This document shows positions 5,981 through 64,000 of a DNA stretch of 64,000 nt, in pieces (positions within the stretch are counted from its first letter, which is position 1; each line of letters starts with the position of its first letter). The notes below the pieces were generated by a model. It did not search any database and was not told where the DNA came from. It saw only the letters and a list, made by a program, of their open reading frames with translations. The stretch covers positions 2,576,001-2,640,000 of the forward strand of contig NZ_CP029190.1 in NCBI RefSeq assembly GCF_008642295.1, written 5' to 3'. Origin of the DNA: Streptomyces venezuelae. Its GTDB lineage: Bacteria; Actinomycetota; Actinomycetes; Streptomycetales; Streptomycetaceae. The position numbers were made by a program, and so were the translations under genes.

Positions 5981-7174
5981 TTACTTGTAGAGGACGTCGA
6001 AGGAACGGACGCCGACCATGTCGGTGGACGGGAAGAAGGTCGGCGGGTTCTCCGGGTTGCTGGCGAACTTCGGGAAGCGGTCCATGATCGTGTTGATCGC
6101 GATCTTGCCCTCGAGGCGGGCGAGTCGGGTGCCCAGGCAGTAGTGCACGCCGTAGCCGAACGAGATGCTCGGGTTCGGGGTGCGGGCCGGGTCGAACACG
6201 TTGGGGCGGTCGAACTTGAGCGGGTCGCGGTTGGCCGCGCTCACCCACGGGAGGATCATCTGCTCGGCCGGGATGGTGACCCCGCCGATCTCGACCTCGC
6301 GGGTGGTCACCCGGGACAGGGTGGCGGCCGGCGGCAGCAGGCGCAGGGCCTCCTCGATGGCGCCCGGGACCAGCGAGCGGTCGGCGCGCACCTGGTCGAA
6401 CACGGCGGGCTCGGTGTCCAGGCAGGCCATGGTGTTGCCGACCATCATGGTGCTGGTGATGTGACCGGTGATCAGCAGCACGTTGGCGATGTTGACGACC
6501 TCGTTGTCGGTGAGGCGCTCACCGTCCTGCTCCGCCTGGATGAGGTAGGTCAGCAGGTCCTCGCGGGGCTGCTTGCGGCGCTGGGCCACCTGGTCGGCCA
6601 TGTAGTCGAGCATGGGCTTCAGGCGGGCCTCGGCGGCGTGGATCTGGTCCTCGATGCCGTCGCCGCCGGCCACGAAGTCCAGGCCGGCCATGTTCTCGAT
6701 GATGTCGAACGCGACGCCCTTGAACAGGTCGCGGTCGCTGAGCGGGACGCCGAGCATCTCGGCGATCACGATCACGGGCAGCGGGTAGGCGAGGTCCGCC
6801 ACCAGCTCGAAGCTGCCCTTCTCCTGCACCTCGTCGATCAGCTCATCGGTGATCTTCTGGATGCGGTCCTCGAGGCCGTTGATGACCCGCGGGGTGAAGG
6901 CGTGGCCGATCAGCTTGCGGTACTTGTTCTGCTCCGGCGGGTCCATCTGCGAGATGTCCCCTTCCTGGAACTTCGGGTCGACCTGCACCGCGGCGTACTT
7001 GGCCGTCGCCGCCGAGAACGTGGCGTGGTCGCCGAGGATCTGCTCGACCTCGTCGTAGCCGTAGGCGCACCAGGCGCCGATCTCCTCGTCGAACTCGATC
7101 GGGTTGGCTGGTCGGATTCCCCGCAGCCACTGGCGGGTGGGGTGGACGTTCCACCGCTCGATGACCTCAGACAC
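5981..7174 (-). CDS. Cytochrome P450 (second of two)
   Basis: The protein has 397 residues from a GTG start at 7174 (MSEVIERWNV), with a GAGAGGAAG site upstream. Conserved elements are the heme loop FGYGVHYCLGTRLAR, the I-helix GHITSTMM and the ExxR motif EEALRLL. Its N-terminus (RQWLRGIRPANPIEFDEEIGAW) resembles that of the neighbouring P450 (WLRGQRPAEPVWYDEKLGLW), so the pair are related and probably arose by duplication or work on related positions. The 36-bp gap to the MbtH gene places it in the NRPS operon. Predicted role: oxidation of a carrier-bound residue or of the finished peptide. Confidence 0.9.
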   Translation of the reverse strand: MSEVIERWNVHPTRQWLRGIRPANPIEFDEEIGAWCAYGYDEVEQILGDHATFSAATAKYAAVQVDPKFQEGDISQMDPPEQNKYRKLIGHAFTPRVINGLEDRIQKITDELIDEVQEKGSFELVADLAYPLPVIVIAEMLGVPLSDRDLFKGVAFDIIENMAGLDFVAGGDGIEDQIHAAEARLKPMLDYMADQVAQRRKQPREDLLTYLIQAEQDGERLTDNEVVNIANVLLITGHITSTMMVGNTMACLDTEPAVFDQVRADRSLVPGAIEEALRLLPPAATLSRVTTREVEIGGVTIPAEQMILPWVSAANRDPLKFDRPNVFDPARTPNPSISFGYGVHYCLGTRLARLEGKIAINTIMDRFPKFASNPENPPTFFPSTDMVGVRSFDVLYK

Positions 7175-53687: not shown

Positions 53688-54779
53688 ATGGCCGCCACCC
53701 GCACCATCCGCCGCTCCCCGCTCGCCCTCCTCAGGCTGCTGCTGCTCCTCGGCCTGCTCTCCGCGGGCCTCATACCGGCCACCGCGGCCCGGGCCGCGGA
53801 CAACGGCAGCTGGGGCGTCTTCCCGACCCCGCCCGCGGGCGCGCAGATGCCCGACCGGGCGTACTTCTTCCACCAGGGGGCGGCCGGCAGCACCGTCCGC
53901 GACAGCGTGACCGTGCACAACGCCTCCGACCGGGAGCTGACCTTCCGGGTCTTCGCCACCGACGCCGTGAACACCCCGGTGGGCGGAGCGTTCGCCCTGC
54001 TGCCGGTGGAGACCCGGCCCAAGGACCTCGGCACCTGGATCGGACTGGGGCCGGAGGCCTCCGGAACGGTCACCGTCCCGGCCAAGGGCCGCAAGGACAT
54101 CCCGTTCACCATCACGGTGCCGGAGGACGCCGCCCCCGGTGACCACGTGGGCGGCATCGTCGCCCTGGGCACGGCGATCGAGGGCACGGAGGGCGAGGAC
54201 AAGGTGAAGGTCGGGGTCCGGCGCTCGGTCGGGGCGCGGATCTACTTCCGGGTGCCCGGCCCGGTGGCTCCCGGGCTGAGCGTGGAGAACGTACGGATCT
54301 CCCGGAGCGCACCGCTGCTGCCGTGGACCGGCAAGGCGCCGGTGACCGTGTCGTACGCGCTGGTCAACCGGGGCAATGTGGTGCTGGCCCCGACCGTGTC
54401 GGTGCGCGCCGAGGGCCTGTTCGGGCGTACGGTGCTGAACCGTCCGGCGCGGGACCTGAAGCTGGTGCTGCTGCCCGGGCAGCGGATCGAGCTGACCGAG
54501 CCGTGGCCGGACTCCCCGCAGCTGGACCGGGTCGAAGTGACGCTGACCGCCGGGGCGGTGGACCACCCGGTCCTGTCGGCGGAGGGCGGTACGGCCTTCA
54601 CGGCGGTCCCCTGGCCGGCGGCGGGCGCCCTGCTGCTCCTCTCCGGCGCGGCTCTGGCCCTCTGGGCCCGGCGGCGCCGCCGCGGTACCGGCACCGGTGC
54701 CGGTGCCGGTCAGGCGGGGGGCCCGCCGGCCAGTTTCCTTTCCCAGAAGATTTCGTCGCGCCATGCGCCGTCGGCGTAG
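53688..54779 (+). CDS. DUF916-like (WxL-interacting) membrane-anchored protein
   Basis: The protein has 363 residues. It has a signal peptide (LLRLLLLLGLLSAGLIPATAARA), two immunoglobulin-like beta domains (about 45-160 with SVTVHNASDRELTFRVFATD and TVPEDAAPGDHVGGIVALG; about 170-300), and a C-terminal membrane helix (AGALLLLSGAALALWA) followed by Arg residues. This is the architecture of DUF916/WxL-binding proteins, here outside the cell and anchored by the last helix. It pairs with the WxL-like protein upstream. The last 70 bp overlap the convergent GNAT gene, and the final 30 residues look like an extension created by that overlap. Confidence 0.72.
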   Translation: MAATRTIRRSPLALLRLLLLLGLLSAGLIPATAARAADNGSWGVFPTPPAGAQMPDRAYFFHQGAAGSTVRDSVTVHNASDRELTFRVFATDAVNTPVGGAFALLPVETRPKDLGTWIGLGPEASGTVTVPAKGRKDIPFTITVPEDAAPGDHVGGIVALGTAIEGTEGEDKVKVGVRRSVGARIYFRVPGPVAPGLSVENVRISRSAPLLPWTGKAPVTVSYALVNRGNVVLAPTVSVRAEGLFGRTVLNRPARDLKLVLLPGQRIELTEPWPDSPQLDRVEVTLTAGAVDHPVLSAEGGTAFTAVPWPAAGALLLLSGAALALWARRRRRGTGTGAGAGQAGGPPASFLSQKISSRHAPSA

Positions 54780-55243
54780 AAGTGCTCATGGGCGATGCCC
54801 CAGGAGCGGAATCCCGCCTTGCGGAGGATCGCCTGGGACGCGAGGTTCTCCAGTTGGGTGTGGGCCTCCAGCCGGTGCAGGTTCAGCTCCTCCTCGGCGA
54901 TCCGCAGCACGAGGCCGACGGCACGGCTCGTGTGCCCGAGTCCCTGGTGGCGGGCGGAGACCCAGTACCCGAGGAATCCCTTCTGGAACGGGCCGCGCAG
55001 GATCGAGCCGATGGTGACCTGCCCGATGACGGTGCCGTCGGAGACCACGACGCCGGGCCAGGCGAGCCCCTTGTCATGGGAGGCCAGCAGGGATTCGATG
55101 GCCGCGGCCTGCCCGTCGGGCGTGTAGAACCCGTCGGGCCTCTCGGGCAGCCAGCGCGCGTACGCCGGCCTGTCCCGGGAGAGCAGGCCGGCGAGTGCGC
55201 GTGCGTCGGAGGCCTCGATCAGGCGGATCGACGTGGAGTTCAC
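54710..55243 (-). CDS. GNAT acetyltransferase, RimJ/RimL type
   Basis: The protein has 177 residues, full length for the RimJ/RimL N-acetyltransferase family. The acetyl-CoA core is visible: QVTIGSILRGPFQKGFLGYWVSARHQGLGHTSRAVGLV and the NLASQAILRKAGFR block near the C-terminus. It acetylates an amine, either a protein N-terminus or a small molecule. It is 18 bp downstream of the aldo/keto reductase gene on the same strand, and its 3' end overlaps the 3' end of the DUF916-like gene by 70 bp. Confidence 0.9.
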   Translation of the reverse strand: MNSTSIRLIEASDARALAGLLSRDRPAYARWLPERPDGFYTPDGQAAAIESLLASHDKGLAWPGVVVSDGTVIGQVTIGSILRGPFQKGFLGYWVSARHQGLGHTSRAVGLVLRIAEEELNLHRLEAHTQLENLASQAILRKAGFRSWGIAHEHFYADGAWRDEIFWERKLAGGPPA

Positions 55244-55261: not shown

Positions 55262-56254
55262 TCAGCTGCGGTAGTCGGTCGGTTCCGAGGGCGTCTTGCG
55301 CGGGTCGCGCTCGATGACCGGCCCGAGGATGCGGTCGATCCGCTCGACGGTCTCGTCGTCCAGCTCGATCCCGGAGGCCGTGACGTTCTGGGCGATCTGC
55401 TCGGGCTTGGTGGCGCCGACGATCGCCGTCGCGACGTTCGGGTTGCGCAGCACCCAGGCGATGGCCAGCTGGGGCATGGACAGGCCGAGGTCGGCGGCGA
55501 CCTCGCCGAGCGCGGCGACGCGCTTGAGCACGTCGTCGGTCAGCGCTCCCGAGGCGAACTGGGAGGCGGCCACCCCTGCGGCGCGCGATCCGGCGGGGGG
55601 CGGCTGGCCGGGCTGGTACTTACCGGCCAGCAGGCCCTGGGCCAGCGGTGACCAGACGAGCTGCCCGATCCCCTCGCGCTCGCACAGCGGGACGATCTCC
55701 TCCTCGATGACCCGCCACACCATGTTGTACTGCGGCTGGTTGGAGATGATCCGGTCGAAGCCCATCCGGTCGGCGAGCGCCAGGGCCTCGGAGATCTGGT
55801 CCGCGGTCCATTCCGAGACCCCCACGTAGAGGACCTTCCCCTGCCGGACCAGGTCGTCGAAGGCGCGCAGGGTCTCGGCGAGCGGGGTCTGCGGGTCGAA
55901 GCGGTGCGCCTGGTAGAGGTCGATGTAGTCGGTCTTGAGCCGGCGCAGCGAGCCGTGCGCCGCCTCCATGATGTGCTTGCGGGACAGGCCCCGGTCGTTC
56001 GGCCCCGGCCCGATCGGGGCGAAGACCTTGGTCGAGATCTCCACGGATTCCCGGCGTACGTTCTCCAGGGCGCGACCGAGTACGGCTTCCGCCCGGGTGC
56101 CACCGTAGACATCGGCGGTGTCGAAGGTCGTAATGCCCTGCTCGAGCGCCTCGCGGGCGATTCGTTCAGCGGATCCCTCCGTATAGCTGATCCAGCTTCC
56201 ATAGGAGATCTCGCTTATTTTCAGCCCGCTGCGTCCTAGGGTTCGATACTTCAT
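55262..56254 (-). CDS. Aldo/keto reductase (potassium-channel beta-subunit type)
   Basis: The protein has 330 residues starting at MKYRTLGRSGLKIS (ATG 56254); a frame extension upstream is rejected. It has the AKR core: Asp-Tyr-Lys-His tetrad regions (GITTFDTADVYGGTRAEAVLG, VEISTKVFAP, YIDLYQAHRFDP), the NADPH loop and the terminal GATKPEQIAQN block, as in the Kv-beta/YajO-like group. It reduces carbonyls with NADPH. It forms a leftward pair with the GNAT gene and is divergent from the transketolase/RiPP operon, so it may be only a neighbour. Confidence 0.92.
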   Translation of the reverse strand: MKYRTLGRSGLKISEISYGSWISYTEGSAERIAREALEQGITTFDTADVYGGTRAEAVLGRALENVRRESVEISTKVFAPIGPGPNDRGLSRKHIMEAAHGSLRRLKTDYIDLYQAHRFDPQTPLAETLRAFDDLVRQGKVLYVGVSEWTADQISEALALADRMGFDRIISNQPQYNMVWRVIEEEIVPLCEREGIGQLVWSPLAQGLLAGKYQPGQPPPAGSRAAGVAASQFASGALTDDVLKRVAALGEVAADLGLSMPQLAIAWVLRNPNVATAIVGATKPEQIAQNVTASGIELDDETVERIDRILGPVIERDPRKTPSEPTDYRS

Positions 56255-56381
56255 GGGTCGGGAGTGTACGCACAGCCCCGGCCGTCCAACACCGCAACCT
56301 GACAAGGTCTTCGGGCGGTCGAACCGGAAGGCCCCCGATCGGAACTAGTGTCGTTCCCGCTGGGCTTTCGAGGGGATGATC

Positions 56382-57101
56382 ATGCACGAAATCCTGACCA
56401 GGGAACGCGATGCAAAGTCGGACTCATACGGGTTCGAAGACCTCGCAGGACTGATGTCCCGGATGACCGGGGACGAAAAGCATTCCGAAGCCGCCACCTC
56501 GACCATGGACGCACTCTGGGTGCTCTACGACCGGGTCCTCCAGGTCGATCCCACCCTGCGCGAGGACCGCGACCGCTTCTATCTTTCAAAGGGCCACGGC
56601 CCACAGGCCTACTACGCAGTACTGTGCGCCAAGGGATTCTTCGAGCCCGAGCTTTTCGACATGTTCGGCGCATTCAATTCGCCGCTCGGCTACCACCCCG
56701 ACCGTGCGCTCATCCCCGGTGTCGAGATATCCAGCGGGTCGCTGGGACACGGGCTGCCGCTGGCGGTGGGGACGGCGCTGGGTCTGCGGGCGCGCGGACT
56801 GACCGACTCCCGGCTCTGGGTCCTGCTCGGCGACGGCGAATTCGACGAGGGCTCCAATCACGAAGCCGTCGCCTACGCCGCCCGGGCCGGCCTGGACCGG
56901 CTGAACGCCGTGGTGATCGACAACCACTCGGCGACCCAGGGCTGGCCCGGCGGTCTGGAGACCCGGTTCGCGGCCGAGGGCTGGGCGACCCTGCGGGTCG
57001 ACGGCCGCGACCACGAGGCGCTGGAGAAGGCCTTCACCACCCCGCATCCGGGCCGGCCCGGTCTGGTCGTCGCCGATGTGGGCGCTCCGGCCGACCGCTG
57101 A
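56382..57101 (+). CDS. Transketolase N-terminal subunit (thiamine diphosphate-binding)
   Basis: The protein has 239 residues from ATG 56382, where GAGGGG stands six bases upstream; an ATG at 56376 overlaps that site. It is the N-terminal half of a transketolase: FYLSKGHGPQAYYAVLCAKGFF, SGSLGHGLPLAVGTALG, and the ThDP/Mg motif LLGDGEFDEGSNHEA ending with IDNHSATQG. It has the length expected for a split transketolase subunit. The partner follows after 34 bp. Being first in the RiPP operon, the pair may transfer a two-carbon or acyloin unit for peptide tailoring, or supply a small precursor. Its role is not known. Confidence 0.88.
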   Translation: MHEILTRERDAKSDSYGFEDLAGLMSRMTGDEKHSEAATSTMDALWVLYDRVLQVDPTLREDRDRFYLSKGHGPQAYYAVLCAKGFFEPELFDMFGAFNSPLGYHPDRALIPGVEISSGSLGHGLPLAVGTALGLRARGLTDSRLWVLLGDGEFDEGSNHEAVAYAARAGLDRLNAVVIDNHSATQGWPGGLETRFAAEGWATLRVDGRDHEALEKAFTTPHPGRPGLVVADVGAPADR

Positions 57102-57135
57102 CGCCCGGACACCGGAACTACTCAGAGGAGTGCCC

Positions 57136-58041
57136 TTGGCAGGCATCATGCGCGAGCGCTTCGTCGATGTCACGACAGAGCTGCTAGGCGTCCACGAGAA
57201 CCTTGCACTGGTGACCGCCGACCTCACCGCGGGGCTGTTCCGCGCGGCCAAGGAGAGCCACCCCGACCGGGTCGTCAACCTGGGGATCAGGGAACAGTTG
57301 CTGGTCAGCGTCGCGGGCGGGATGTCGCTGGCAGGAATGCGGCCGATCGCCCACAGCTTCGCACCCTTCCTCATCGAGCGGCCCTTCGAGCAGATCAAGC
57401 TCGATCTGAACCATCAGGACGCGGGCGCGGTCCTGGTCAGCGCCGGCGCCTCGTACGACATGGCGAGCAGCGGCCGGTCCCACCAGTCGCCCGGAGATGT
57501 CGCACTGCTGTCGACACTGCCCGACTGGACCATCCATGTTCCGGGCCACCCGGACGAGGCCGAGGCGCACCTGCGCGAGGCCGCGACCGGCGACGGACTC
57601 GTCTACGTCCGGCTGTCCAACCAGTCGAACGCCGAGCCGTACGGCCTGGACTCCGGGCACGGGTTCCGGGTCCTGCGCCGCGGAACACAGGCCACCGTCA
57701 TCGCGGTGGGGCCCCTGGCCGACGCCGTGCTGGAGGCCACCGAACACCTGGACGTCACCGTCCTCTACGGCGCCACCATCCGCCCCTTCGACACCGCCGG
57801 ACTGCGTGCGGTGGTAGGTGAGCAGGCGGTGGCCTCGGTCGTCCTCGTCGAGCCCTATCTCGCGGGAACATCGACCGCCGAAATCGCCGGCGCCCTTGTG
57901 GACCGGCCGCACAGAATCCTCGCTCTCGGGGTCTCGAAAGAAGAACTGCGGAACTACGGCTCGCCGCGCCAGCATGCCATTGCGCATGGCCTGGGCCCGG
58001 CCGGAATGCGCCGGAAGATTTCTTCTTTCCTTTCCTCTTGA
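57136..58041 (+). CDS. Transketolase C-terminal subunit
   Basis: The protein has 301 residues. The likely start is TTG 57136, seven bases after an AGAGGAG site; ATG 57148, four codons later, is an alternative. It holds the pyrimidine-binding half with the catalytic Glu motif RVVNLGIREQLLVSVAGG, then AHSFAPFLIERPFEQIK and SHQSPGDVALL, and a C-terminal transketolase domain (EPYLAGTSTAEIA). With the upstream subunit it should form a complete ThDP enzyme at an alpha2beta2 interface. The precursor-peptide gene starts 94 bp downstream, after a more AT-rich leader. Confidence 0.88.
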   Translation: MAGIMRERFVDVTTELLGVHENLALVTADLTAGLFRAAKESHPDRVVNLGIREQLLVSVAGGMSLAGMRPIAHSFAPFLIERPFEQIKLDLNHQDAGAVLVSAGASYDMASSGRSHQSPGDVALLSTLPDWTIHVPGHPDEAEAHLREAATGDGLVYVRLSNQSNAEPYGLDSGHGFRVLRRGTQATVIAVGPLADAVLEATEHLDVTVLYGATIRPFDTAGLRAVVGEQAVASVVLVEPYLAGTSTAEIAGALVDRPHRILALGVSKEELRNYGSPRQHAIAHGLGPAGMRRKISSFLSS

Positions 58042-58135
58042 CGAGAGATCCGCATTACCGTTCTAATTGTTTCACCAACCCGTTGAAAACAACGGGAAAT
58101 CGATTCACCGCCGGAAAAGAAAAAGGGGTATTCGA

Positions 58136-58261
58136 ATGTCCATCAACGACAAGCTCTCCGCCACCAACGAGGAGACCATCATCGCTGCCGCCGACGCTGA
58201 GGTCGCGGAGCTCTCCGACCACGAGCGCCCGATGGTCATCGGTGTCATCAACGAGGCCTAA
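58136..58261 (+). CDS. Candidate RiPP precursor peptide
   Basis: The protein has 41 residues from ATG 58136 (AAGGGG site). It is rich in Ala, Glu and Asp in the leader-like part (residues 1-31, with LSATNEETIIAAADAE and ELSDHER), followed by the hydrophobic C-terminus PMVIGVINEA (32-41). Its size, acidic leader, position ahead of YcaO/TfuA and modifying enzymes, and the strong hairpin behind it all fit a RiPP precursor. The single proline (Pro32) is just before the likely core. The core has no Cys, Ser or Thr, so azoles are unlikely; backbone thioamides and side-chain hydroxylation (for example of Asn39 or Val/Ile) are possible. An in-frame start at 58067 would add a basic, unlikely extension. 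Confidence 0.78.
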   Translation: MSINDKLSATNEETIIAAADAEVAELSDHERPMVIGVINEA

Positions 58262-58270
58262 AGCGTGATT

Positions 58271-58296
58271 CGGGGGCGGCCTTCGGGCCGCCCCCG
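58271..58296 (+). terminator. Attenuating hairpin after the precursor gene
   Basis: A perfect 11-bp stem (CGGGGGCGGCC/GGCCGCCCCCG) with loop TTCG starts nine bases after the precursor stop codon. Such a hairpin between a precursor gene and its enzymes commonly gives excess precursor mRNA. There is no T-run except TTTCG further on. Confidence 0.75.
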
Positions 58297-58326
58297 ATCG
58301 GTTTCGATTTAGTGATAAGGATTCTC

Positions 58327-59199
58327 GTGGAAACCGTACATCCACTGACTCGCCTCATTGACGAAGTCGACCTCATGGGCGCCTTCTGGAACAAGAGGCA
58401 CGGGTTGTTCAAGAATGCCTCTCCGGTGGCGGGAATGCTGGATGAGACGGCCATTCAGGAAGTGCTCGACGTCGGCCTGCTCCGCTGGCCGTACTTCATG
58501 CTCCTGAAGGAGGGGATCCAGCCGGCGATCTCGGACTTCACCCGCACCAGGAACGTCCGCGGCCAGAGCGTGAGCGACTTCGCCGACGCCGAGAAGGTCC
58601 GGAAGCACCTGGCCGGCGGCGCCACCATGAAGCTGAGCCAGCTCGAGGACTGGCACCGGCCGACGCGGCAGCTCATGGACGAGATCGAGAGCAGGCTCCC
58701 CGCCGAGCTCAAGGCCTATGTCTTCTACACCCCGTGCGACAACACCGGCATGCTTCCGCACCGGGACCCGTCCCATGTGCTCGCCGTGCAGATCGCCGGC
58801 GCCAAGGAATGGCGCATCTACGACGCTCCGGACAAGGTCGACTCCCGTGGCGGACTCCTGCCCGAGCTGGATGCGGACAGCCACTCGCGCTCCTTCGTCA
58901 TGGAGCCCGGGGATGTCCTCTACCTGCCGCACGGCGTCCCCCATGTCGCCACGGCCCGGACGGGCACCTCGCTCCACCTGACCCTGACCCTCACCGAGCC
59001 GGCCCCGCTGGAGCTCGTCGAGTCCCTGATGCAGGGCTTCGGCGAGGAAGCGGACCGCCTGGAATCCACCACCTCCGGCATCTCCACCGAGGCCAAGGCC
59101 GAGGCGGTGACCCGTGCGTTGCTCGGCTACCTGGACCAGGTGGACCCGGACGCACTCGTGGACAAGACCGTGGCGCGCATGCGGAACCGGAGGGCCTGA
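58327..59199 (+). CDS. JmjC/cupin-type Fe(II) oxygenase, first copy
   Basis: The protein has 290 residues from GTG 58327 (AAGG six bases upstream); GTG 58312 is an alternative. It belongs to the cupin_4/JmjC group related to RoxA and NO66, protein hydroxylases using Fe(II) and 2-oxoglutarate. The metal site is visible: His145 and Asp147 in PHRDPSH, and His206 in PHGVPH. The C-terminal helical part (after 235) fits the dimerisation/winged-helix region. It is a good candidate for hydroxylating a side chain of the precursor peptide, perhaps a beta-carbon. Confidence 0.85.
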   Translation: METVHPLTRLIDEVDLMGAFWNKRHGLFKNASPVAGMLDETAIQEVLDVGLLRWPYFMLLKEGIQPAISDFTRTRNVRGQSVSDFADAEKVRKHLAGGATMKLSQLEDWHRPTRQLMDEIESRLPAELKAYVFYTPCDNTGMLPHRDPSHVLAVQIAGAKEWRIYDAPDKVDSRGGLLPELDADSHSRSFVMEPGDVLYLPHGVPHVATARTGTSLHLTLTLTEPAPLELVESLMQGFGEEADRLESTTSGISTEAKAEAVTRALLGYLDQVDPDALVDKTVARMRNRRA

Positions 59200-59203
59200 A
59201 CCG

Positions 59204-60070
59204 ATGACCATCGACGTTTCCGCGCGGACGGAAGAGACCACGCGGGCACCCGAGCACCTCGCCGACCTCGTCGGTGACGCCGAGACCTTCCTCGGCGAGG
59301 TATGGGGAATCCGTACGGCCACGTTCAGCTGCGAGCCGGCGAAGACGCTGCTCTCCACGGCGGACGTCTGGAACGAGCTGGACTGCGGCTCGCTGGTCGC
59401 CCCCTACTTCGGCATCCTCAGGGAGGGCACCGACCCCACGGTCTCGGGCGTCGCCGAGACCCGGATCGTCCAGACGAAGCCCCGGCCCGGGTACGCGAAG
59501 CCGGCCGCGGTGCGCGAGCTGGTCGCCTCCGGCCACGTCTTCGTGCTGAGCCAACTGGAAGACTGGAAGGGCCCGATCGGCGCACTCGTCGACGCGCTCC
59601 GAACCGAATGCCGTGCCCAGGCCGGTGCCGACGCGTACTTCTGCGCCGCCGGATCCGATGGCGTACCCGCCCATGCGGACGGCGCCCACACCCTCACCGT
59701 GCAGCTCGAAGGCCGTATGCGCTGGATCGTGGGCGAGGGCGGGCAGGCCACCGAGACCGTGCTCGAAGCCGGCGACGTCCTCTACGTCCCGGCCGGGCGG
59801 GTGCGCCGGGGAGCCCCGGCCGGCACCGATGCCCTGCACCTGGTGATCTCGCTCCAGCAGCCCACCGCCCGGGATCTCGCCGAGCTGGCCCTGGCCGTGT
59901 TCCTCAAGGGCTCCGCCGCGGCAGGGGTGGCCGGAACGCATCACTTCCTGTCCGTGGAGGAGAAGGTCGCCTGGCTCCGGAGCGAGCTGCACGCCCATCT
60001 CGCCGGCCAGGACCACGGAGCGCTGGCAGCACAGGCCGTACGGCTCCGGCAGCGCGAAGGCAGGGCGTAG
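59204..60070 (+). CDS. JmjC/cupin-type protein, second copy, distal His lost
   Basis: The protein has 288 residues (ATG 59204, four bases after the previous stop). It shares the fold and many blocks of the upstream gene (LSQLEDWKGPI against LSQLEDWHRPT; AGDVLYVPAG against PGDVLYLPHG). The first metal ligands remain (His157 and Asp159 in PAHADG), but the third ligand position reads PAGRVR (Arg201) instead of PHGVPH. So it probably cannot bind iron normally. Like other pseudo-enzyme pairs it may form a heterodimer with the first copy, bind the peptide, or have changed chemistry. Confidence 0.82.
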   Translation: MTIDVSARTEETTRAPEHLADLVGDAETFLGEVWGIRTATFSCEPAKTLLSTADVWNELDCGSLVAPYFGILREGTDPTVSGVAETRIVQTKPRPGYAKPAAVRELVASGHVFVLSQLEDWKGPIGALVDALRTECRAQAGADAYFCAAGSDGVPAHADGAHTLTVQLEGRMRWIVGEGGQATETVLEAGDVLYVPAGRVRRGAPAGTDALHLVISLQQPTARDLAELALAVFLKGSAAAGVAGTHHFLSVEEKVAWLRSELHAHLAGQDHGALAAQAVRLRQREGRA

Positions 60071-60074
60071 CACC

Positions 60075-62123
60075 GTGCCCGGACCCACCACCGAAGGCAG
60101 CGCCGGGACCGCTCTGTTCGAACTCCTGCGGACACAGCAGCGGCTGACGAGGGCGCACCGCCTGGGCAGCCGTCTTCTCGTCGAATCCCAGATCGAGCGG
60201 GAGAACCGTCCCGACCTCGTTCCCTTCGTGCTGGGCTACTCCCCCGACCACGGCGACGGGCCGACCCTGCTGCACGCACACGCGGGCGCCTCGTCGGTGA
60301 CCGTCCTCGGTGACGAGGACTACCTCTTCCTCTCGGACCGGCGCCCGCCGGCGGAAAACTCTCTGGGCTCGGTGGGCGGCCGGTCGCTCTGGCGGCACCG
60401 CGAGGGGCGGGAACCGCAGGCACTGCTCGGCACCGCCCGCGACGTGGTCTGCTACGCCGCCGCCGGCCGGACGGCCGTCGCGGCCGTCTGGGTGCACGCC
60501 AAGGCGGACTCCTTCGCAGCGGACCGGGCTCTCCGGGAGCAGGAGGCCCGGGAGGGCCTGACCGCGGTGACCGTCGAGGGCGACCTCTGGCCGCGCTCCA
60601 GCCAGCAGTTCGGCACCGAGGTACTCAAGCTGGTCGTCCTGTCCCTGGCCGAGAATGCCGGCGATGCCGGGGAGGCCGGGGATACGGCCGAGCCGGTCCT
60701 GCTGGAACTTCCCCTCGACCGGGACACCCGGCTGTCCGGGCAGGTCGCCCTGACCCCCGACGGCCGCCGCTGCGCCGCCGGGCTGGTCCGCTTCCTGCCC
60801 GGCGGGCACCGTCGCTACGGGCTACTCCTGTTCTCCCCGGGCTTCTCCCCGGACCTGCCGGATGAGGCCCGGCAGGTCTGGGCCGAGGACGACCTGAGCG
60901 ACGCGGTCGCGTCCCCCGACGGCGCCTGGTTCGCCTGCACCGCGGAACGGATCGCGGTCCCCGGTATGGCGCCCCGTCAGGAGGCGGCCCTGGTGTCGAG
61001 CGACGGACTCGACGTCCGCAAGGTCGCTCAGGCCCACCGCGACTGGCTTCAGCCCCGCTGCTGGCAGGACTCCACGACGCTGCTGTGCACCGGCGAGGAG
61101 GACGGGCGGCGCCACCTCTGGCGGATCGCCGTCGACACGGACGTCATCACACGGTTGGACGCCGGCGGCTCGGTGCTCTCCGTGACGGCCCGCGGGAGCG
61201 AGGCCCTGGTCGTCCGCTCCTCCATCGGGTCGCCCCCCTCGGTCGTGGCCCTCTCGCTCGCCACACCGGAGGCCACCCGCACGGAGGTCTTCGCCCCGGC
61301 CGCCGCGGCCATCCCCCGGGGCAGGATGGAGCGTCTCACCTACGAGGCACCCGACGGAGCCAGGTGGAGCAGCTGGCTCTGCCTGCCCGAGGACTTCGAC
61401 GGGGATGCCGGCGGCGGGCTTCCCGTCCTCGTCTGGTGCCACGGCGGGCCGATGCTCAGCTGGACCGACTGGTCCTGGCGGTGGAACCCCTGGCCGTTCG
61501 TCGCCGACGGGTACGCGGTCCTGATGCCCGACCCTCCCCTGTCGGTCGGGTACGGCCAGGACGCCATCGAGCGCGGGTGGGGGAAATGGACCTCCGAGGT
61601 GGCCGCCGTGGCCGCCGAGCAGATCGGGGACGCACTGCTCGATCCCCGTCTCGACGCCGAGCGGGTGGCGGTGATGGGAGCGAGCTTCGGCGGCTTCCTC
61701 TCGCTGGCACTGGGAACCCTCCTGCCCGAACCGCGCCTGATCGTCAGCCACTGCGGCTGGGCCGATTTCCCCGCGGTGGCCCGGGCCTGCGATCTGCACT
61801 GGCACTGGCTGCGCGAGTACGGCCCGGTGGATGCCTCGCCGGCCTACCGCTCGGAGAGCCTCTCGCTCGAGGCCATCTCGCCGCGGACCAAGGTGCTCCT
61901 GTCCCACGGATGTGAGGACAGCCATGTGCCGGTCGGTGAATCGCGCGCCGTGTACCGGGCGCTGGACACCCTGGGCGTGGACGTCGAACTCATGCTCGTC
62001 CCGGACGAGCGGCACAGCATCCTCAGACCCGCGAACGCCGCCGCCTGGCACCGGTGGGTCGCCCAGGCATGTCGCGAGAGGCTCGGCAAGCGGTCGGCCA
62101 GAAAGGAATTCAGCGTCAGATGA
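60075..62123 (+). CDS. S9 prolyl-oligopeptidase-type protease
   Basis: The protein has 682 residues from GTG 60075. A beta-propeller-like N-terminal region (to about 415; for example LSDAVASPDGAWFACT) precedes an alpha/beta hydrolase with WCHGGPMLSWTDWSW, the nucleophile in MGASFGGFLSLA, Asp in SHGCEDSHVPVG and His in PDERHSIL. The triad is complete. No signal peptide is evident. In RiPP operons such proteases remove the leader. The precursor has exactly one proline, at the probable leader/core border, which fits post-proline cleavage. It overlaps the YcaO gene by four bases. Confidence 0.88.
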   Translation: MPGPTTEGSAGTALFELLRTQQRLTRAHRLGSRLLVESQIERENRPDLVPFVLGYSPDHGDGPTLLHAHAGASSVTVLGDEDYLFLSDRRPPAENSLGSVGGRSLWRHREGREPQALLGTARDVVCYAAAGRTAVAAVWVHAKADSFAADRALREQEAREGLTAVTVEGDLWPRSSQQFGTEVLKLVVLSLAENAGDAGEAGDTAEPVLLELPLDRDTRLSGQVALTPDGRRCAAGLVRFLPGGHRRYGLLLFSPGFSPDLPDEARQVWAEDDLSDAVASPDGAWFACTAERIAVPGMAPRQEAALVSSDGLDVRKVAQAHRDWLQPRCWQDSTTLLCTGEEDGRRHLWRIAVDTDVITRLDAGGSVLSVTARGSEALVVRSSIGSPPSVVALSLATPEATRTEVFAPAAAAIPRGRMERLTYEAPDGARWSSWLCLPEDFDGDAGGGLPVLVWCHGGPMLSWTDWSWRWNPWPFVADGYAVLMPDPPLSVGYGQDAIERGWGKWTSEVAAVAAEQIGDALLDPRLDAERVAVMGASFGGFLSLALGTLLPEPRLIVSHCGWADFPAVARACDLHWHWLREYGPVDASPAYRSESLSLEAISPRTKVLLSHGCEDSHVPVGESRAVYRALDTLGVDVELMLVPDERHSILRPANAAAWHRWVAQACRERLGKRSARKEFSVR

Positions 62124-63397
62124 CGATCGTTCATACGCGTGTCCCTGCGAGCCTCGACCGGACCCACTGGTTCCCGCCCGCGGCCGACGCGCCCGCCACC
62201 GCCTGCGGCACCTCCCTGCGGACCCGCACGCTGGAAGAGACGGAGGCGCTGGCCCGGGCCAGCTTCACCCGGTGCGGAATCACCCGGGTCGCCGATGTCA
62301 CCGAGCTCGATGTCCTCGGCATCCCGGTCTTCAACAGCTTCCGGCCCGCCGCGGCACCCGGGCTCAATACGGTGACCAGCGGAAAGGGCATGACCGCGGC
62401 GGCAGCCCGGGTCTCGGCCATGATGGAGGCGATCGAGCGGACCTGGTGCGAACAGCGGGCGGGTGAGCCCCCGCTGCGGGCTTCGTACGCCGAGCTGTGC
62501 GCCTCGGGCGTCCCCGCGCTCGACCCCCGGCGCCTGATCCTCAAGCGGGGCCACACCTGGACCGAGGACGCGTCCATCGCCTGGTGGCCCGTACGGGAAC
62601 TGGCCTCGAACACCGAGGTGCTCATTCCCGCTCTCGCGGTGTTCGTGCCCTTCCCGAACGAGTGCGGGATGTTCCGGTCGAACACCATCGGCCTCGCCGT
62701 GGGCAACAGCCCCCAGGAGGCCCTGCTGCACGGACTGCTCGAGACCATCGAGCACGACTGCACGGCATTCGGCGAGACCCTCAAGAGCGGCTGGAACATC
62801 CGGCTGTCCTCGCTGCCGGACGCCGCCCGGGAACTGGTCGGCCGGTTCGGGCAGATGGGGGTCAACGTCCAGGTCTTCGCCTATGTCAACGACATCGGAG
62901 TACCGACGTTCTTCGCGACCACCGACGACACCCAGGCCGGCGACGGGATGCTCTTCAACGGCGGCGCGGGCTGCCATCTCGATCCGGTCGTCGCGGTGAC
63001 CCGCGCGCTGACGGAGGCGGCCCAGTCGAGGCTCGCGGTGATCGCGGGCGCACGGGAGGACTTCGCGGGCCAGGCCTACCGCCGCCACTCCTCCTACGAA
63101 GCCCTCCGCGAGATGTACGAGGTGTGGAGCAGCGGGCGGCCCACGGCGGATTTCGACGTGGTCCAGAGCTCGAGCACCGGCACGACGGACGGCGACCTCG
63201 AGGTGGTCCTGGCCGGACTGGAACGCGCCGGGCTCCCGCTGGTCTTCGCCACGGAACTGGCCCCCGACGACCTTCCGTTCTCGGTCACCAAGGTGATCGT
63301 GCCCGGACTCGAGGTCTACCACAACGATCCCGCGCGGCTGGGAACACGCCTGCACCGCGAGATGGTGCGAGCCGGACTCACAAAGGCCCTGTCATGA
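62120..63397 (+). CDS. YcaO-domain protein, thioamidation type
   Basis: The protein has 425 residues (ATG 62120, ATGA overlap with the protease gene). The YcaO ATP/Mg-binding signature is clear: MMEAIER (Glu103, Glu106), LLETIEHD (Glu208, Glu211) and EAAQSR (Glu299, Arg304). The C-terminus ends in RAGLTKALS and lacks the PxPxP tail of azoline cyclodehydratases. YcaO proteins activate the peptide backbone amide with ATP. Together with TfuA this one would install a thioamide rather than an azoline. The adjacent precursor has no Cys, Ser or Thr in its presumed core, which agrees. Coupled to TfuA by another ATGA overlap. Confidence 0.93.
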   Translation: MTIVHTRVPASLDRTHWFPPAADAPATACGTSLRTRTLEETEALARASFTRCGITRVADVTELDVLGIPVFNSFRPAAAPGLNTVTSGKGMTAAAARVSAMMEAIERTWCEQRAGEPPLRASYAELCASGVPALDPRRLILKRGHTWTEDASIAWWPVRELASNTEVLIPALAVFVPFPNECGMFRSNTIGLAVGNSPQEALLHGLLETIEHDCTAFGETLKSGWNIRLSSLPDAARELVGRFGQMGVNVQVFAYVNDIGVPTFFATTDDTQAGDGMLFNGGAGCHLDPVVAVTRALTEAAQSRLAVIAGAREDFAGQAYRRHSSYEALREMYEVWSSGRPTADFDVVQSSSTGTTDGDLEVVLAGLERAGLPLVFATELAPDDLPFSVTKVIVPGLEVYHNDPARLGTRLHREMVRAGLTKALS

Positions 63398-64000
63398 CGA
63401 TCAGCCCCACCATCACGGTGTTCACCGGCCCCTCGCTGCGCCCGGCGGACCTCACCCGGCTCCAAGGCCTCGCCCGGGAACGGAACCGGACGCTCGATCT
63501 GCGGCCCCCGGTCCGCCGGCACGATCTGCTGGCCCTCATCGGCGCGGAGTCCCCTCGTAAAGTCATCATGCTGGACGGGGAGTTCGGCCAGAGTCTCGCG
63601 GTGAGCGTGACCGAGGTGCGGGCCCTGCTGTTCGCCGGGCAGCCGCTGTCCGGCGCGTCCTCGATGGGCGCGCTGCGGGCCGTGGAATGCCGGACGATCG
63701 GGATGACCGGCAGCGGCTGGGTCTACTCGCAGTACCTGAACGGCTCGATCGACTCCGATGGCGATGTGGCGCTGCTGTACGACCCGGAGGACTTCACCCC
63801 CGTCACCATTCCGCTGGTGAACGTCCGCTGGCTGCTGGCGGAACGGGTGCGGGAAGGCGACCTCTCCGCCGAAGAGGCGAGCAGTGCGCTGGAGATCGCG
63901 AAGGCCCTGAACTTCCGGGACAGACGGCATTCCGTTCTGTTGAAGCAGTGGAAGCACGGGCTCCCCGAGGGCGCCGCGGCGGCCCTGGAAGCACATTTCG
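63394..64000 (+). CDS. TfuA-like protein, truncated by the window end
   Basis: At least 202 residues are visible from ATG 63394, overlapping the YcaO stop. The TfuA core shows in TVFTGPSLRPAD at the start, KVIMLDGEFGQSLAVSVTEVRALLFAG and SGASSMGALRAVE. TfuA works with YcaO to form thioamides, likely by handling the sulfur donor. The C-terminus, and any further genes such as transport or sulfur delivery, lie beyond the window. Confidence 0.92.
   Translation, partial: MTISPTITVFTGPSLRPADLTRLQGLARERNRTLDLRPPVRRHDLLALIGAESPRKVIMLDGEFGQSLAVSVTEVRALLFAGQPLSGASSMGALRAVECRTIGMTGSGWVYSQYLNGSIDSDGDVALLYDPEDFTPVTIPLVNVRWLLAERVREGDLSAEEASSALEIAKALNFRDRRHSVLLKQWKHGLPEGAAAALEAHF

Follow-up and report, generated by a model that had tools for sequence, protein, structure and literature searches.

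What does a streptomycete gene cluster make when it combines YcaO and TfuA genes with a split transketolase, two JmjC hydroxylase homologues, an S9-family peptidase and a very short gene? The question is raised by a locus at the end of a 64,000-nucleotide stretch of Streptomyces venezuelae DNA (hereafter, the window), which corresponds to positions 2576001-2640000 of one 7.5 Mb contig. The answer favored here, with a probability of roughly 0.75, is that the cluster makes a thioamidated, hydroxylated, linear ribosomally synthesized and post-translationally modified peptide (RiPP). Most likely, the product is a linear nona- or decapeptide with a thioamide in its backbone and one residue hydroxylated, each chemical step being inferred from what was observed of gene content, linkage, conservation, active-site residues and selection on the precursor. 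An earlier, sequence-only reading of this DNA had proposed a thioamide RiPP made by YcaO/TfuA and an unusual set of tailoring enzymes, and the proposal is supported by domain scores far above cut-off (YcaO, PF02624, 250 bits against 25.7; TfuA, PF07812, 107.8 against 30). The genes and coordinates of its co-directional set have been borne out, as has the translational coupling of the protease, YcaO and TfuA genes through ATGA overlaps at both junctions. The cluster is larger than first described, with GNAT and aldo/keto reductase (AKR) genes upstream on the minus strand, and PhyH and MFS genes downstream.

Related clusters were recovered by a JMJ1 (first JmjC gene) pattern scan over 84,980 species genomes, which yielded 26 loci. 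The JmjC pair, YcaO, TfuA and S9 genes are found together in 14 of these (L009-L022) and were not matched in the other 12 (L023-L034). Together with L067, L070, L071 and an annotated plasmid stretch found via S9 (L105), the total comes to 19 loci, the window included. Specifically, the S9 search against plasmids matched 214 records, the best of which was L105. In an order-wide sample, JMJ1 was matched at E<=1e-15 in 100 of 391 genomes and above 200 bits in seven, all seven with cluster context; among 20 stretches around JMJ1 matches, seven held both YcaO and TfuA and 13 held neither. A phylum-wide sample gave matches at E<=1e-40 in two of 396 genomes, both already among the loci, and thus no new locus. 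Because strong matches are so few in both samples, the family can be called rare and is found mainly in streptomycetes, although precursor matches also carry the names Kitasatospora, Streptacidiphilus, Sphaerisporangium and Micromonospora. Kept outside the counts were L023-L034 (where only JMJ1 was matched, plus a transketolase in L023), L065, L066, L068 and L069 (repeats of L014, L011, L020 and L022, respectively) and L072-L084, 13 stretches with JmjC genes and without YcaO or TfuA.

The window precursor, MSINDKLSATNEETIIAAADAEVAELSDHERPMVIGVINEA, is a 41-aa peptide with an acidic leader and the C-terminal part ...DHERPMVIGVINEA, and its core is predicted to start after RP. The short acidic-leader precursor of the sequence-only reading is real: a precursor-like open reading frame (ORF), looked for at the same position in homologous loci, lies beside the JmjC, YcaO and TfuA genes in 18 of the 19, the remaining locus (L016) being cut by the contig end. 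A profile search with the precursor returned 51 proteins, 50 of them at E<=0.01, whose neighborhoods are covered where they coincide with the 19 loci. Forty-nine end in (R/A)P...IN(E/M)(A/S) (31 RP-type, 18 AP-type), a figure that gives the number fitting rather than invariance, as both patterns demanded P and IN. The two outside the pattern are a Streptacidiphilus carbonis peptide (RPVLLENIDD) and one ending right after AP. Among the 31 RP-type peptides, the residues after Pro (M/T, V/L/T, I/V/M) change conservatively, and the two residues before INEA are the most variable. Overall, conservation is strongest at the C terminus, and the leader diverges between the two clades of clusters described below. 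The precursor is under purifying selection, with a ratio of nonsynonymous to synonymous substitution (dN/dS) of 0.06-0.55, below 1 in 15/15 pairs from six clade-1 coding sequences of equal length; these pairs are not independent, since L011, L013 and L014 are close relatives, and L012, L015 and L071 were excluded for length or divergence. Given such selection, and given that the JmjC-YcaO-TfuA and precursor set recurs in other genera, the association is more than chance. A GC-rich hairpin follows the precursor gene in 15/15 spacers folded, with z from -1.1 (L018) to -7.0 (window) against 100 mononucleotide shuffles, and it is possible that the hairpin is an attenuator keeping precursor transcript in excess.

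The best NCBIfam match of YcaO is TIGR03266, the McrA-glycine thioamidation YcaO, at 267.6 bits, and TfuA adjoins YcaO in 19/19 loci. The window TfuA matches the solved TfuA 6xp8 at 3.9e-24, and its genome holds a single TfuA match and four ThiS matches. TfuA hydrolyses the thiocarboxylate ThiS-COSH via a Ser-Lys pair (PMC13185837; papers cited by PMC accession are drawn on here for the portions seen). The window TfuA has both residues, the Ser within GASSMGAL and, within DxKRxDA, a Lys that, judged from the sequence, would be the catalytic one. The idea of an inactive clade-1 TfuA, lacking the Lys of the clade-2 KEI motif, was dropped, as 6xp8 has REI there. Three further YcaO-domain places occur elsewhere in the window genome, within 13 kb of each other (336993-349915).

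The gene called a prolyl protease belongs to the S9 family by PF00326, and prolyl specificity is conjecture. Its best NCBIfam match is Dpp5, at 95.9 bits far under the cut-off of 900, and among solved structures it comes nearest to an S9 peptidase, acylpeptide hydrolases and dipeptidyl peptidases (DPPs). A role in leader or X-Pro processing may be suggested.

Two cluster architectures are found. Clade 1 (the window and L009-L016) is arranged as precursor-JMJ1-JMJ2-S9-YcaO-TfuA, plus transketolase, MFS and GNAT genes, with AKR in 5/9. Clade 2 (L017-L022, L067, L070, L105) runs precursor-JmjC-JmjC-YcaO-TfuA-S9-AAC(3)-GNAT-M16-M16-MFS, without transketolase. In clade 1, transketolase is found in eight of nine loci (in L013 as TKC, its C-terminal subunit, alone at the contig start; the L016 contig does not reach it), GNAT in eight (the L009 contig ends before it) and MFS in seven (for the window, just past its end; not in L013 and L016, both cut upstream). 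AKR orthologues (70-89%) adjoin the cluster in L009, L010, L012 and L015 in varying arrangement, and none was seen in the L011, L013, L014 and L016 stretches, two of which (L013, L016) are cut on one side. The third oxygenase of clade 1 also varies: the window genome and L009 have PhyH; L011, L013, L014 and L016 have a triad-intact third JmjC, joined by a CmcI-like methyltransferase in the first three of these; and neither PhyH nor third JmjC was matched in L010, L012 and L015. Gene order is likewise fluid, with MFS-TKN-TKC after TfuA in L012 and GNAT-AKR downstream in both L010 and L012. Since block order differs among the clade-1 loci, the continued association is not merely inherited synteny; transketolase, MFS, AKR and GNAT stay with the core operon despite rearrangement. 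In clade 2, M16 genes occur in seven of nine loci (unmatched in L017 and the 7.4-kb L070) and MFS in six (L019, L020 and L070 end before it). Relatives of the window GNAT (51-61%) are found in L010-L015, and a different type occurs in L016. This clade-1 locus, from Sphaerisporangium, carries at 6621-7133 a clade-2-type GNAT (57% to the L105 GNAT), a sign of exchange between architectures.

Does the transketolase truly belong to the cluster? Both subunits of the split enzyme are present as first described, with the correction that the family is common in Streptomyces. Read by eye, the N-terminal subunit (TKN) has the GDG...DN motif and TKC the GIREQ catalytic-Glu region; the PF02780 score of TKC is slightly below cut-off, and its closest solved chain is 6yaj, the C-terminal chain of the Carboxydothermus split transketolase (1.8e-23). 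The enzyme may be a chance neighbor of a YcaO/TfuA/JmjC RiPP cluster, serving for example in sugar metabolism, and this improbable explanation draws on how common the family is: TKC is matched at E<=1e-40 in 189/391 order genomes (at most six candidates scored per genome), and no gene is common to the five transketolase neighborhoods taken outside such clusters, although three (L106, L108, L109) have nearby an operon that we take to be of the conservon type. It is countered by the presence of transketolase in 8/8 clade-1 loci whose contig reaches, in Streptomyces, Streptantibioticus and Streptacidiphilus and at varied positions, and by the trees, in which cluster copies lie on one branch with support of 1.0 for TKC (8 cluster, 22 other) and 0.996 for TKN (7, 22); the trees are unrooted and limited, as five of the 22 others are repeats, the rest having been picked as best matches. 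In the window genome, the cluster copy stands alone among six TKC candidates scored of 34. Because the family is common outside clusters and the cluster copies share one branch, a common transketolase was probably recruited once and then kept, which looks like a single recruitment of a thiamine diphosphate (ThDP)-dependent enzyme into a RiPP cluster. A transketolase near the distant JmjC in L023 was dropped as an ordinary 665-aa transketolase.

The two JmjC hydroxylase homologues are such by homology, with the qualification that JMJ2 of the window lacks the distal iron-binding His. The HxD...H triad of JMJ1 is intact in 18/18 rows (L105 lies outside this audit). That of JMJ2 is complete in 8/8 clade-2 rows and 0/9 clade-1 rows, the L071 row having been dropped as unreliable. 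Specifically, the window and L009 keep HAD with the distal His lost or replaced, and the other seven clade-1 rows miss the proximal His or Asp in differing ways. Because the complete iron triad is missing in 9/9 clade-1 loci, JMJ2 there is probably catalytically dead, a pseudoenzyme or partner subunit. Structure models gave predicted local distance difference test (pLDDT) values of 89 for JMJ1 and 87 for JMJ2, the latter with a predicted jelly-roll fold; its alignment, of 14 rows including active relatives, may bias the model toward the active fold. The best PDB matches of the models are NO66, MINA53, YcfD and Bacillus subtilis YxbC, with query template-modeling (TM) scores of about 0.47-0.64 and root-mean-square deviations of 6-11 Å; as modeled, the fold is shared, but not closely. 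In the JMJ1 model, compared as a whole chain, the jelly roll is followed by three terminal helices; YcfD, NO66 and MINA53 possess a C-terminal winged-helix domain. YxbC is close to the query in size, and no description of the enzyme was found in open PMC, by title or abstract among the matches listed. It is conceivable, though not probable, that clade-1 JMJ2 uses other ligands and remains active, so that both JmjC proteins hydroxylate; HAD is kept in the window and L009, and the fold is retained in the model, but the differing losses in the other seven rows are as expected under relaxed constraint. With JMJ2 taken as a probable pseudoenzyme, the JmjC pairs offer a natural experiment, active/active in clade 2 and active/pseudo in clade 1.

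Formation of azol(in)e or amidine rings by the YcaO, in place of thioamides, is very unlikely. All three chemistries are known for YcaO proteins in the literature seen, and the SagD family TIGR03604 matches this one at 134.5 bits, under its cut-off of 219; set against this are the TfuA gene adjoining YcaO in every locus, the lack of a cyclodehydratase partner among the ten other cluster genes scanned with Pfam and the core itself, as RPMVIGVINEA has no Cys, Ser or Thr and azol(in)e formation on it is therefore excluded. There is a very slight chance that the small ORF serves in regulation or immunity and is no precursor, since its leader resembles no RiPP leader known to us, but the C terminus is its most conserved part, the leader diverges between clades, and the ORF lies upstream of JMJ1 with the hairpin between them.

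For the thioamidated, hydroxylated RiPP favored here, a pathway may be proposed. The hairpin attenuator after its gene would allow the precursor to be made in excess over the enzymes. With ThiS-COSH and TfuA delivering sulfide, YcaO would then install a thioamide at one or more backbone amides of the C-terminal core, with the conserved I-N pair as a first guess for the site. JMJ1 would add a hydroxyl to a single residue of the core, for which the conserved Asn is the likeliest candidate and the Arg preceding Pro an alternative in clade 1. JMJ2 would assist JMJ1 without catalysis of its own or serve to bind the leader, and PhyH would add a further oxidation in the window type. Cleavage by S9 after the conserved Pro would release MVIGVINEA in the window, or decapeptides in clade 2. 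Finally, MFS would export the product, and GNAT might acetylate it or protect the host (that is, peptide N-acylation or self-resistance). The clade-1 transketolase would supply or attach a small ketol-derived unit. One specific version is that it acts on the peptide, such that a carbonyl introduced into the thioamidated core by JmjC or PhyH takes a two-carbon ketol from a sugar phosphate, with AKR reduction optional. This version is doubtful, and if true, it would mean that a RiPP is built with a ThDP-dependent C-C bond-forming step, which a JmjC/pseudo-JmjC pair would steer. Exact-mass tests are simple with a core this short and free of Cys, Ser and Thr.

Several points weigh against this reading. 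The YcaO score lies below the TIGR03266 equivalog cut-off of 365, S9 is equally close to acylpeptide hydrolases and DPPs, and S9 had no match in L071. Relatives of the transketolase also occur outside such clusters. Clade 2 lacks the Arg preceding Pro, and Arg hydroxylation therefore cannot hold for all; more broadly, the sites of thioamidation, hydroxylation and S9 cleavage are inferred only. As to linkage, 13 of the 20 stretches taken around weaker JmjC matches contain no YcaO or TfuA, and the linkage of the JmjC genes is partly by construction because JMJ1 was the bait (S9 for L105). The mutual linkage of precursor, YcaO, TfuA and S9 genes is free of this effect.

Thioamitide cores carry C-terminal Cys and Ser/Thr for aminovinyl-methylcysteine (AviMeCys), and the window core, lacking all three residues, is thus not thioviridamide-like. 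The known YcaO-TfuA thioamidated RiPP classes are the thioviridamide-like compounds, thiovarsolins, thioamidated thiopeptides and chimeric lanthipeptides (PMC13174530). The window cluster shares with them adjacent YcaO and TfuA genes, a conserved short precursor alongside and a Streptomyces host; unlike them, it shows no core Cys/Ser/Thr, no repeats and no heme-oxygenase-like or amidinotransferase domain, and has instead a JmjC pair, S9, split transketolase and PhyH. Thiovarsolin-like clusters are marked by repeated cores and by heme-oxygenase-like and amidinotransferase genes (figure legend, PMC6511847 or PMC8120280), whereas the window core is single and neither Pfam domain was found in the eleven genes scanned. 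A closer parallel is the std cluster of S. thermodiastaticus, with YcaO-TfuA acting on Asn, oxidative tailoring, MFS and a conserved C-terminal Asn motif (SNKEWQE in std, INEA in the window); std employs an MNIO and a peptidase-carbamoyltransferase where the window has JmjC, S9 and transketolase (PMC13174530). In E. coli uL16, the hydroxylase RoxA modifies Arg81 and a YcaO the neighboring Met82, which again joins a thioamidating YcaO to a ribosomal-oxygenase hydroxylase, there on adjacent residues of a ribosomal protein and with no TfuA, and sets a precedent for the two enzyme types working within one short segment (PMC13063428). By analogy, and as far as the portions seen allow, the uL16 and std cases are each a precedent for one half of the model. 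Likewise, JmjC hydroxylases are found inside the clusters of biphenomycin-type RiPPs (BipG, BpmG, PbsQ), with ornithine hydroxylation shown for BipG and PbsQ; these have a single JmjC, an MNIO and a B12-dependent radical SAM enzyme, and the portions seen mention no YcaO or TfuA (PMC12707348, PMC12257519). PF08007 or cupin-4 proteins have been reported near RiPP genes, and a sponge survey (PMC9426513) names TfuA and cupin separately, with no TfuA-linked JmjC pair or transketolase mentioned for these contexts in the text seen (PMC12710340, PMC9426513).

The system had been put forward as undescribed, and in the searchable text of 5.39 million open PMC papers no cluster with YcaO, TfuA and JmjC was described, the supplements of PMC6511847 and PMC8120280 lying outside the search. 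Likewise in open PMC, no YcaO/TfuA thioamidation was linked with transketolase, and no transketolase with YcaO in a RiPP context. In the text seen, TfuA and transketolase were named together only in a Pseudomonas genome comparison, and YcaO thioamidation, prolyl oligopeptidase and precursor peptide only in a reference list. Genome-mining work has reported 74 peptide networks (PMC6511847) and 797 precursor clusters (PMC8120280, where a figure legend also places PhyH and S9 genes within certain TfuA clusters), and the precursor family may be listed without function in the supplements of either paper. Taken as a whole, the precursor family, with at least two architectures, brings together a thioamidating YcaO and a hydroxylase of the ribosomal-oxygenase type, the very enzyme types that modify neighboring residues of uL16.

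Table 1. Cluster features, in window coordinates; features past the window end are placed on stretch L007
Feature	Coordinates	Strand	Evidence
GNAT N-acetyltransferase	54710..55243	-	PF13302 6.8e-19
Aldo/keto reductase (AKR), optional partner	55262..56305	-	PF00248 1.7e-77
TKN, N-terminal ThDP-binding subunit of split transketolase	56376..57101	+	PF00456 6.5e-24
TKC, C-terminal pyrimidine-binding subunit of split transketolase	57136..58041	+	PF02779 2e-25
Precursor peptide, 41 aa	58136..58261	+	Position and sequence conserved
GC-rich hairpin, precursor/JMJ1 spacer	58271..58296	+	RNAfold -33.7 kcal/mol for 58259-58311
JMJ1, Fe(II)/2-oxoglutarate hydroxylase homologue, ribosomal-oxygenase type (PF08007)	58312..59199	+	PF08007 1.6e-20
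JMJ2, JmjC-fold protein without complete iron triad	59204..60070	+	PF08007 2e-14
S9-family serine peptidase	60075..62123	+	PF00326 1.3e-21
YcaO, putative thioamidation type	62120..63397	+	PF02624 4.5e-74
TfuA	63394..64000, then 77 nt past window (L007 9394-10077)	+	PF07812 3.7e-31
PhyH	L007 10113-10865, downstream of window		Pfam PhyH above cut-off
MFS	L007 10862-12100, downstream of window		Pfam MFS_1 above cut-off

The TTG start of TKC, preceded by AGAGGAG, was chosen by the analyst, with an alternative ATG at 57148. The Pfam scan comprised eleven cluster genes, YcaO included, and the domains above cut-off were Transketolase_N, Transket_pyr, JmjC_2 (twice), Peptidase_S9, YcaO, TfuA, PhyH, MFS_1, Acetyltransf_3 and Aldo_ket_red.

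In locus L071, JmjC occurs together with two YcaO/TfuA pairs, of which one resembles clade 2 and the other clade 1; neither S9 nor transketolase was matched. The second YcaO of L071 shows 45-48% identity to clade 1 but 30-32% to clade 2, and the first reads as two overlapping ORFs, through a frameshift or sequencing error. The L071 precursor, ending ...GPRPVLLENIDD, is identical to P0045, a protein named for S. carbonis, and L071 appears to belong to that species. The published account of an S. carbonis TfuA cluster gives two tfuA and three ycaO genes and, in the portion seen, mentions no precursor or JmjC (PMC8120280).

A second family of paired JmjC genes occurs without YcaO or TfuA. A small upstream ORF is found in five of its seven loci (L078, L079, L080, L081, L084) and is missing in L082 and L083, whose JmjC proteins are longer. 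The peptides encoded by these small ORFs are rich in Ala and signal-like in their middle part and end in, for example, VEAGCGDCYPDVI or VEASCGGCPLDVI, and the five loci look like an independent JmjC-pair RiPP.

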